Shown here: positions 60,466 through 64,000 of the stretch, piece by piece
How positions within the stretch are numbered: the stretch's first letter is position 1
How the letters are laid out: each line of letters opens with the position of its first letter
Source of the DNA: Alphaproteobacteria bacterium
GTDB taxonomy: Bacteria; Pseudomonadota; Alphaproteobacteria; SMXS01
Length of the DNA: 64,000 nt
Reading direction: 5' to 3'
Assembly: GCA_028284945.1 (NCBI GenBank)
Contig: JANQQJ010000034.1
Coordinates: 1 to 64,000 of the forward strand
Made by a program: the position numbers and the translations under genes
Notes under the pieces: model-generated
Database searches by the model: none
Told to the model about the DNA's origin: nothing
Seen by the model: only the letters and a program-made list of their open reading frames with translations

Positions 60466-61863
60466 ATGGATAAGGACGTCTATGAAGGCCTGAAACCGGG
60501 GGAGGCGCGCAGCAGCGGACCCAGCGTACAGGACATTCTCGACCGCGATGGCGACAACCCGCCGTCACATTTGCGCGAACAGTCATACCGTTTCCTCGGC
60601 AATGAAGACATGGACCCGTCCCGCTATACCAGCCGTGAATTCGCCCAGGCCGAACTGGACCATATGTGGACCAAAGTCTGGCAAATGGCCTGCCGCGAGG
60701 AAGAGATTCCCGAACCAGGTGACCACATTGTCTATGACATCGGTGAATGGAGTTTCATCGTCGTCCGCACCGCCGAGGATGAGTTCAGGGCCTATTACAA
60801 TGCGTGCCTGCACCGGGGCACCCAGCTGCGCCCCTCGAACAGTCAGGGCAATGTGCCGCAGTTCCGCTGTCCGTTTCATGGCTTTACCTGGAACCTGGAC
60901 GGCACCCTGAAGGAGATTCCCTGCGACTGGGACTTCCCGCATATCGACAAGGACAATTTCGACCTGCCGCAGGTCCGGCTAGGCCGATGGGGCGGCTTCG
61001 TTTTCATCAACATGGACGACGATGCTGAACCCTTGGAAGACTATCTGGGCGTTTTGCCGGATCACTTCACAACCTGGCCCTTGGAAGACCGCTTCATGAG
61101 CGCCAATGTGCGGCGCACCCTGCCCTGCAACTGGAAAGTCGCCCAGGAGGCCTTCATCGAGTCTTTCCACGTTGTTGAAACACACTCGCAGGCGCTGCCC
61201 ATGACCGGGGACGCCAACACCCAATATGATATCTGGGGCGACAATATCAGCCGCCTTTACACCTTACAGGGAGTTCCCAGCCCCCATGTTGAAAGCCCCA
61301 TGACCGAACAGGAAATGGCCGACGTCCTGATGGCTGGTGTCGGGGCCACGAAGCGCGACGGTGAATTCAAACTCGCTGAAGGCGAGACCGCCCGTTCGGT
61401 GAATAAGGACATTCTGGTTAAGGAAATGAAGGACCGGTTTGGCGCGGACGTTTCCAAGCTGACTACGACGGAACTGGTCGATCCGATTGAGTATTTCCTG
61501 TTCCCCAACTTCCTGCCCTGGTTCAATTTCGGGCTCCCGCTGGTCTATCGCTTCCGTCCGCTGGGCAGTGACCCTGACTGGTGCATCATGGATGTGATGT
61601 TGCTGCACCCCATCCCGGACAACGGACCGCGCCCTGAACCGGCGCCCTTGCGTGTGCTCGGCCCCGATGAGCCGTTCACGGATGCGCCCGAACTGGACCA
61701 GATTTCGCCGATCTTCGAGCAGGATGTCTCCAACATGCCGCTGGTGCAGAAAGGCATGAAGACTCTGGCGCGCAAGAAGGGCATCACGCTCGGAAATTAT
61801 CAGGAAATCCGCGTCCGCCATATGCACCAGACCCTGGACAAATACATTACGGCCGGCACTTGA
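60466..61863 (+). CDS. Rieske-type ring-hydroxylating/demethylating oxygenase alpha subunit
   Basis: A 465-residue oxygenase. The [2Fe-2S] Rieske ligands are Cys114/His116 (CLHRG) and Cys135/His138 (CPFHGF). The mononuclear iron site is His235 and His240 in ESFHVVETH after NWKVAQEAF. The residue bridging the two centres is Glu232, where ring-hydroxylating dioxygenases usually have Asp; glutamate is known in the carnitine and betaine demethylase type. The substrate is unknown. It is the first gene of an operon with the CoA-binding protein (four-base overlap) and the Rieske-TPP fusion. No reductase gene is seen. Confidence 0.9.
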   Translation: MDKDVYEGLKPGEARSSGPSVQDILDRDGDNPPSHLREQSYRFLGNEDMDPSRYTSREFAQAELDHMWTKVWQMACREEEIPEPGDHIVYDIGEWSFIVVRTAEDEFRAYYNACLHRGTQLRPSNSQGNVPQFRCPFHGFTWNLDGTLKEIPCDWDFPHIDKDNFDLPQVRLGRWGGFVFINMDDDAEPLEDYLGVLPDHFTTWPLEDRFMSANVRRTLPCNWKVAQEAFIESFHVVETHSQALPMTGDANTQYDIWGDNISRLYTLQGVPSPHVESPMTEQEMADVLMAGVGATKRDGEFKLAEGETARSVNKDILVKEMKDRFGADVSKLTTTELVDPIEYFLFPNFLPWFNFGLPLVYRFRPLGSDPDWCIMDVMLLHPIPDNGPRPEPAPLRVLGPDEPFTDAPELDQISPIFEQDVSNMPLVQKGMKTLARKKGITLGNYQEIRVRHMHQTLDKYITAGT

Positions 61864-62300
61864 GCACATTGCTCAATTATTCTGACGATCTGATCCGCGA
61901 CATCCTGCAGCGCTCGAAAACCATCGCCATGATCGGCGCATCGCCCAACCCGGCGCGGGACAGTCATGAGGTAATGCGGTTTCTACAGGCCAAGGGCCAC
62001 CGCGTGGTTCCGGTTAACCCAACGTCGGCTGGACAGGAAATTCTCGGTGAAACCGTCGTTGCGGACCTCTCGGAGATCAGTGAACCGGTTCAGATGGTGG
62101 ATGTGTTTCGCCGGTCGGAATGGATCGCCCCTTTGGTCGACGAGGTGCTGGAACACGCACCCCGGCTGGGGATCACCTCTATCTGGATGCAACTCGGCGT
62201 GCGTGACGACAGGGCAGCTGCTAAAGCAGAAGCCGAGGGCCTTGATGTTATTATGAATCGCTGCCCGGTGATCGAATATCCCAGGCTGGGGCTGCGATAG
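61860..62300 (+). CDS. CoA-binding protein (YccU type)
   Basis: A 146-residue single Rossmann domain of the CoA-binding family, with the nucleotide motif IGASPNPARDSHEVM near residues 25-39 and VNPTSAGQEILGE. Related proteins bind CoA but have no enzyme activity of their own. The start is TTG 61860, which overlaps the oxygenase stop as TTGA, the same coupling geometry as ATGA elsewhere in this window. Function in this operon is unknown. Confidence 0.88.
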   Translation: MSTLLNYSDDLIRDILQRSKTIAMIGASPNPARDSHEVMRFLQAKGHRVVPVNPTSAGQEILGETVVADLSEISEPVQMVDVFRRSEWIAPLVDEVLEHAPRLGITSIWMQLGVRDDRAAAKAEAEGLDVIMNRCPVIEYPRLGLR

Positions 62301-62354: not shown

Positions 62355-64000
62355 ATGACTGAAACTTCCTGGATCAAAGTCGCCGAGGCCGATGAGCTGC
62401 CCGAAGGCCGGGTGAAGACCGTGACCGCGGGAACGCGCACGCTGGCGCTGACCCATTTCGATGGCCAATACGGCGCGCTCGACAACAAATGCCCGCATCA
62501 GGGCGGCCCGCTGGGCGAAGGGTCGATTGAGGATTGCTGGCTGCGCTGCCCCTGGCATGGCTGGGACTTCCATCCGCTGACCGGTGAGTCCCCCGGCGGC
62601 CATGACGACGGGGTCGAGACCTTCCCGGTCGAAGCGCGCGAAGACGGTATCTACATCGCCATTCCGGCCGAGGAAGCCCATGTCCGCACCGTCACCGATG
62701 TGATGGCGGAAACCATGGTGAACTGGGGCGTCACCCATGTGTTCGGCATGGTCGGCCACTCCAATCTAGGCCTCGCCGATGCCATCCGCGTGCAGGAAGA
62801 TGAAGGCAACATGACCTTTATCGGCATCCGGCACGAAGGCGCCGCCGCCTTCGCCTGTTCCGGCTATGCCAAGCTGACGGGCAAGCCGGCGGCCTGCCTC
62901 TCCATCGCCGGGCCGGGCGCTACCAACCTGCTGACCGGACTGTGGGACGCCAAGGTGGACCGCGCGCCGGTGCTGGCGCTGACCGGACAGGTGAACACGC
63001 AGGTGCTGGGCCCGGGCGCGTTCCAGGAGATCGACCTGGCCGACGCGTTCAACGCCGTCTCCAGCTTTAGCCAGACCGTGCTTTCCAACAGCGACCATGC
63101 GGAGCTGATGACGCTGGCGCTCAAGAACGCCATCGTGAACCGGGATGTCGCGCATCTGATCTTCCCGGACGAGATGCAGACGGTTCCGGCTGAAGATAAC
63201 GCCCCTGCGTCGGGCCCGTTCGGGCGCATGGGCGATATCGGCATGGCGCCGGCTCAGGCCTCCATCGATGAAGCGATGCTGCGGATCAACGTCCACCGCC
63301 GCCCGGTCATTATTGTCGGCTATGGCGCACGCGAGAGCATGGACGATATCATCGCGCTGGCTGAAAAGCTGGACGCGCCGGTGCTGACGACGTTCAAGGC
63401 CAAGGGGCAGATTTCCGACAGCCACGAGCTCGCCGCCGGCGTGCTGGGCCGCTCCGGCACACCCATCGCCAGCTGGTTCATGAATGAATCCGACCTGCTG
63501 CTGGTGTTCGGCGCGTCATTTTCCGACCACACGGGCATCGAAAAGAAAAAGCCGATCATCCAGGTCGATTTCGACCGCATGGCGCTGGGCAAGTTTCATT
63601 CGGTCGACGTGCCGGTCTGGGGCGAGATCGGCCAGACGGCGCGCGCGATCTGCGACGCGCTTACCAACAACCCAGACCGGGAGAGTCAGCGTGATGAGAT
63701 TGCCGAGCGCTGGGCGCTGTGGCGCGAGGAAAAGGCGAGCCGCCGCACCGACGACCGCGGCAACGGCGTCGCCTCGGCCAACGTGTTCCAGGTGCTCACA
63801 AACGTATGCCCGGATGACGCGGTGATCGCCGTCGATGTCGGCAACAACACCTATTCCTTCGGCCGCTATTTCGAATGCGCCGATCAGTCGGTCCTGATGT
63901 CGGGTTATCTGGGCTCGATCGGGTTCGCCTTTCCGGCGGCCATGGGCGCCTGGGCGGCGGCGGGCCATGAACGACCGATCGTATCCGTGTCCGGCGACGG
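62355..64000 (+). CDS. Fusion: N-terminal Rieske domain with TPP-dependent (acetolactate synthase-like) enzyme, partial
   Basis: An open frame starts at ATG 62355, with GGAG six bases before it, and runs off the window after 548 codons. Residues 1-107 are a Rieske ferredoxin with Cys46/His48 (CPHQG) and Cys65/His68 (CPWHGW). From residue 110 the protein is a thiamine-diphosphate enzyme of the acetolactate synthase/pyruvate oxidase superfamily: TDVMAETMVNWGVTHVFG, catalytic Glu161 in RHEGAAAF, SIAGPGATNLLTG, a central domain near 300-440, and the start of the TPP/metal motif GDG at the very end. The two halves share one frame with no stop. Confidence 0.9.
   Translation, partial: MTETSWIKVAEADELPEGRVKTVTAGTRTLALTHFDGQYGALDNKCPHQGGPLGEGSIEDCWLRCPWHGWDFHPLTGESPGGHDDGVETFPVEAREDGIYIAIPAEEAHVRTVTDVMAETMVNWGVTHVFGMVGHSNLGLADAIRVQEDEGNMTFIGIRHEGAAAFACSGYAKLTGKPAACLSIAGPGATNLLTGLWDAKVDRAPVLALTGQVNTQVLGPGAFQEIDLADAFNAVSSFSQTVLSNSDHAELMTLALKNAIVNRDVAHLIFPDEMQTVPAEDNAPASGPFGRMGDIGMAPAQASIDEAMLRINVHRRPVIIVGYGARESMDDIIALAEKLDAPVLTTFKAKGQISDSHELAAGVLGRSGTPIASWFMNESDLLLVFGASFSDHTGIEKKKPIIQVDFDRMALGKFHSVDVPVWGEIGQTARAICDALTNNPDRESQRDEIAERWALWREEKASRRTDDRGNGVASANVFQVLTNVCPDDAVIAVDVGNNTYSFGRYFECADQSVLMSGYLGSIGFAFPAAMGAWAAAGHERPIVSVSGD

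Follow-up and report, generated by a model that had tools for sequence, protein, structure and literature searches.

We identified an open reading frame at the end of the analyzed window (the whole stretch of 64,000 nucleotides from an alphaproteobacterial contig) as a member of a widespread family without a name, found in bacteria and salt-loving archaea, in which a Rieske [2Fe-2S] domain is fused to a thiamine-diphosphate (ThDP, TPP) enzyme. We put at roughly one half the probability that it encodes an oxidase of a 2-oxoacid, most likely pyruvate, which uses ThDP and probably FAD and in which the in-chain Rieske center would serve as a one-electron exit toward an acceptor other than the oxygenase encoded in the window. 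The gene, its domains and its upstream neighbors are located as follows.

60466..61863, + strand: ring-hydroxylating oxygenase alpha subunit (GbcA-like), upstream neighbor (Pfam, NCBIfam)
61860..62300, + strand: CoA_binding_2 protein (Pfam), overlapping the oxygenase gene by 4 bp
62355..64000 in the window, to 64298 on the contig, + strand: Rieske-TPP fusion gene, RTPP (open reading frame and Pfam domains)
62367..62588, + strand: Rieske [2Fe-2S] domain, residues 5-78, with Cys46, His48, Cys65 and His68 (Pfam PF00355)
62688..63038, + strand: TPP_enzyme_N, residues 112-228, with catalytic Glu161 (Pfam, alignment)
63264..63647, + strand: TPP_enzyme_M, residues 304-431, with putative FAD-site residues Gly365, Ser388, Phe389 and Asp405 (Pfam, alignment)
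63834..64000, continuing to contig base 64274, + strand: start of TPP_enzyme_C, residues 494-640 (Pfam)

A sequence-only reading of the window had proposed a single continuous frame joining a Rieske domain to a TPP enzyme, and the contig beyond position 64000 bore this out. The frame (62355..64298, + strand, 647 aa; also L009:3355-5298, in G000:C39) is unbroken past the window edge, where residue 548 is reached, and runs without frameshift to a stop at contig base 64298, which completes the TPP domains with the bulk of TPP_enzyme_C lying outside the window. The protein contains one Rieske domain (PF00355, E 3.7e-18, 65.7 bits against a cut-off of 20.3), a short linker (about residues 104-112) and all three TPP-enzyme domains, spanning residues 112-640 with E < 1e-31 each. 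The predicted model of the whole chain reached a mean pLDDT of 89.7 and a pTM of 0.85.

The architecture proved to be widespread, from bacteria to haloarchaea. Among 84,980 species genomes scanned, at least 581 relatives were confirmed, and the best 80 of these were kept. All 80 are fused (65-72% identity; one ends with its contig), which rules out a frameshift, an assembly artefact or a chance or chimeric reading frame. Their hosts include Alpha- and Gammaproteobacteria, Cyanobacteria, Acidobacteriota, Planctomycetota, Myxococcota, Nitrospirota and Calditrichota, among others. Fused copies are also borne by haloarchaeal plasmids (63-65% identity) and by a Mycobacteroides abscessus plasmid (54%), where they are annotated merely as "thiamine pyrophosphate-binding protein". 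The sequence-only reading had allowed that a widespread architecture might already have an assigned activity; none was found for it, nor did the open PMC papers covered yield a description of the fusion. In a set of 49 fused sequences ranging from Proteobacteria to haloarchaea, the cluster ligands and the catalytic glutamate predicted earlier (Cys46, His48, Cys65, His68 and Glu161) were invariant, as were Gly365, Ser388, Phe389, Asp405, Asp548 and Lys580, while residue 575 is Asn in 45 sequences and Asp in the other 4. In a tree whose outgroup branches are very long, all fused sequences group in a single clade with support of 100/99.

The N-terminal domain matches the soluble Rieske ferredoxins of oxygenases, with CxH/CxxH ligands. 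It is homologous to CarAc, BphF, T4moC and NdoA, but these are separate proteins serving oxygenases, whereas the Rieske domain studied here is part of a TPP enzyme. It is of the BphF/CarAc/T4moC-like type and has none of the additional disulphide cysteines seen in bc1 Rieske proteins. Rieske centers lacking these cysteines have a low potential, around -150 mV, and electron flow from a pyruvate-reduced flavin to such a center is feasible.

The remainder of the chain had been described as acetolactate-synthase/pyruvate-oxidase-like, and of this double label the second half is the closer. The best NCBIfam model is pyruvate oxidase PRK08611 (398.1 bits, under its cut-off of 742); other pyruvate dehydrogenase/oxidase models, PRK09124 (314 bits, cut-off 792) among them, score 287-318 bits, and no model passes its curated cut-off. 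The acetolactate synthase large-subunit model TIGR00118 scored 287.8 bits (cut-off 538), and the acetolactate synthase label was rejected as the profiles prefer pyruvate oxidase by about 110 bits. E. coli PoxB was the top PDB match by sequence (E 3e-69) and also the top Foldseek match of the predicted model (TM 0.90 normalised to target). PoxB (PDB 3eya/3ey9) and C. glutamicum PQO (9ev3-9ev6) share the TPP_N/M/C architecture at 24-28% identity over the TPP part, and the alignment pairs their catalytic Glu, Mg/ThDP residues and FAD-pocket positions with residues of the fusion. The PoxB FAD site, which we take to be residues 251-254, 274-278 and 292, corresponds to residues 364-367, 387-391 and Asp405 of the fusion. 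Judging from the conservation of these positions, the middle domain may bind FAD. Acetolactate synthases retain FAD with no net redox use of it.

Beyond its N-terminal Rieske domain, the fusion differs from PoxB and PQO in two features. The C-terminal lipid-binding membrane tail is absent, the chain stopping shortly after TPP_enzyme_C, 4 residues beyond where its alignment to PoxB ends (PoxB residue 528 of 572), and the invariant Lys580 (49/49) stands at the position of PoxB Phe465 and L. plantarum POX Phe479. This phenylalanine adjoins ThDP and is presumably important for the oxidative half reaction. Among the non-fused relatives inspected, the position is occupied by Phe, Met, Leu, Glu or Gln. 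With an invariant lysine instead, the fusion may depart from PoxB in its substrate or in the oxidative step. Phosphate-dependent POX (L. plantarum; the PRK08611 type of Bacilli), the source of the best NCBIfam model, shares Glu483 with the fusion (Glu584), yet the latter scores under the family cut-off, carries Lys580 and has the Rieske domain added. Since the protein falls under the curated cut-off and lacks two features of that group (active-site Phe and C-terminal tail), we do not call it a pyruvate oxidase but propose that it would work like one, as a putative variant within the pyruvate-oxidase group.

In the mechanism that we favor, ThDP/Glu161 chemistry would decarboxylate the oxoacid, and electrons from hydroxyethyl-ThDP would pass to FAD, from there to the Rieske cluster and on to an outside acceptor. 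A BphF-type Rieske exit would take the place of the lipid/quinone exit of PoxB, whose membrane tail the fusion lacks. In principle this resembles PFOR/OFOR, TPP enzymes that send oxoacid electrons to Fe-S centers. PFOR/OFOR belong to another protein family and are CoA-dependent, with [4Fe-4S] clusters and no FAD, and are usually oxygen-sensitive. The earlier idea that the Rieske center serves a TPP redox enzyme is sensible in the light of the PoxB-like fold, the FAD-pocket positions and the invariant ligands; its link to the oxygenase is what had to be given up, as detailed below.

We then surveyed genes within 6 kb of the fusion by neighbor clustering and tblastn in 92 loci, counting on 89 after removal of duplicates (L152, L153 and L154, equal to L035, L015 and L017); the loci were picked for their similarity to the query, which leaves the set phylogenetically unbalanced. 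One or more of six partner families occurred in 54/89 distinct loci: a glutamate-synthase-like FMN protein (28/89), DUF5996 (23/89), a Na+/H+ exchanger (15/89), a membrane protein that resembles ferric reductases and ends in a Rieske domain, its 263-aa neighbor (13 loci each), and an FMN reductase (9 loci, mostly cyanobacterial). An FMN_red protein accompanies the fusion in M. abscessus as well. Similarly, Pfam assignment of 93 immediate same-strand neighbors gave Glu_synthase 13 times, DUF5996 12 times, and FMN_red and Rieske 8 times each. Locus L160 encodes, in a row and on one strand, an antiporter, a Rieske-glutamate-synthase, a Rieske-ferric-reductase, the 263-aa protein and the fusion.

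The glutamate-synthase-like proteins carry their own N-terminal CxH...CxxH motif in 19 of the 22 untruncated cluster members. These Rieske fusions to an FMN enzyme, about 537 aa long, occur in bacteria and haloarchaea (L021:5512-7125, L177:17973-19682 and others) and are annotated merely as "glutamate synthase-related protein". In a sample of 385 genomes of the window genome's class, the TPP fusion was present in 7/9 genomes with a Rieske-glutamate-synthase, one of the seven being a partial match, against a background of 14/385 (Fisher p = 5e-10). Where the match to the homologue begins only at about residue 125, as in four genomes, the fusion is absent. Three haloarchaeal plasmids bear both genes at distances of 1.4 to 17 kb. 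The Rieske-bearing proteins of the same mobile module, Rieske-glutamate-synthase-like and Rieske-ferric-reductase, would be the likely partners in many genomes and are candidate electron acceptors. The usual partner, a Rieske-glutamate-synthase, was not found in the window genome.

Several other observations were made in these neighborhoods. The Rieske-bearing membrane protein is ferric-reductase/MsrQ-like (L078:6047-7108; also in L026, L043 and L160), and the 263-aa protein always beside it has no Pfam match and contains a cysteine motif, CFLGVMKPG...C...C, in L078. Haloarchaeal plasmid islands around the fusion (L175, L176, L177 and L178) encode mercury reductase, arsenic resistance, DsrE, a TauE/SafE exporter and antiporters, a setting that suggests stress or detoxification. 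In the window genome, a DUF5996-like gene lies 6.5 kb downstream of the fusion (L009:11851-12666, contig 70851-71666). Just past the window there are four tandem paralogues of 365-419 aa (L009:6134-11107, contig 65134-70107) with GC below their surroundings; to the eye, their N-termini resemble TPR and their C-termini TonB.

The sequence-only reading had the fusion give electrons to, or take them from, the Rieske oxygenase first in the operon, and the local arrangement is consistent with this. The genes lie on the same strand, the 4-bp overlap is followed by a 54-bp gap and a GGAG-like ribosome site in front of the fusion, and co-transcription with the upstream genes may be supposed. The Rieske domain, moreover, resembles BphF/CarAc-type ferredoxins, which do donate electrons to oxygenase Rieske centers. 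The wider distribution argues strongly against it. The closest oxygenase orthologues (64-68%) are in four sister genomes of the same family, where the flanking genes include no CoA-binding gene and no fusion, and the fusion was not found in the other 9 genomes examined from the window genome's family/order. Within 6 kb of the fusion, 2/89 distinct loci have an oxygenase match (29% identity) and 1/89 has a CoA-binding match (30%, on the opposite strand), so the pair is not a conserved neighbor; no relative of the CoA-binding protein was found in viral contigs. Ring_hydroxyl_A was unmatched in 4/12 fusion-bearing genomes of the class (G012, G092, G138 and G239, 90-97% complete). The CoA-binding protein was rejected as a conserved partner on its locus count, and the oxygenase partnership as a general function on orthologue distribution, synteny and genome content; the family does not depend on oxygenases. 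There is also a compositional break between oxygenase and fusion, whose GC3 of 0.815 is the highest of 22 genes measured around it (others 0.53-0.74). Given this peak and the orthologues without fusion, the gene appears to have been inserted behind the oxygenase in this particular lineage, and in the window genome it was probably acquired horizontally. The oxygenase does lack a visible reductase, as had been remarked, but this is a trait of the whole genome: its reductase supply is very narrow, with no FAD_binding_6 protein and one BphA4-type Reductase_C protein. The same genome (3.56 Mb) shows a strong expansion of Rieske proteins, with 48 ring-hydroxylating oxygenase alpha subunits and 54 Rieske domains. 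Altogether we regard electron exchange with this oxygenase as improbable.

Two further alternatives concern the chemistry itself. The TPP part could be a non-redox carboligase or decarboxylase of the acetolactate-synthase/HKA-synthase kind, with the Rieske domain acting as a redox sensor or as a structural or regulatory add-on. In VIA-align, a comparison dominated by the TPP part, an HKA synthase, which is a non-redox enzyme, tied with PoxB (Z 40.9 and 40.8), and both Lys580 in place of the pyruvate oxidases' Phe and the stress-type genes of the partner module (antiporters, FMN reductases) would fit such an enzyme. The preference of the profiles for pyruvate oxidases speaks against it, however, and a sensor does not obviously explain Rieske domains on two more redox enzymes of the module, so that we consider it unlikely, if still worth weighing. 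Electrons could also run in reverse, from the Rieske center to flavin and ThDP, for example to drive a reductive reaction of an acyl group. Lys580 near ThDP might favor a carboxylate or a CO2-derived group, and the partner FMN reductases could supply electrons; but the closest relatives are oxidases, and a Rieske center near -150 mV has a low driving force for reductive carboxylation, which makes this direction very improbable.

Returning to the 2-oxoacid oxidase with a Rieske exit, its recurrent company hints at a broader and decidedly tentative picture, which we think doubtful as a whole. Within a mobile redox module that crosses domains of life, several unrelated enzymes might each have gained a Rieske domain that serves them all as a shared port for electrons: a 2-oxoacid oxidase using thiamine, an FMN enzyme resembling glutamate synthase, and a membrane haem/ferric-reductase protein. 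Rieske-to-Rieske transfer would then wire the oxidation of 2-oxoacids directly to the partners, as an oxygen-tolerant analogue of 2-oxoacid:ferredoxin oxidoreductase. The two further Rieske fusions make this electron-wiring hypothesis open to direct test, and the neighborhood provides a first context for DUF5996. A Rieske exit in a TPP enzyme was not found described in the open PMC papers covered. If our reading is true, many bacterial phyla and haloarchaeal plasmids would harbor a 2-oxoacid-oxidising family with a built-in one-electron Rieske exit.
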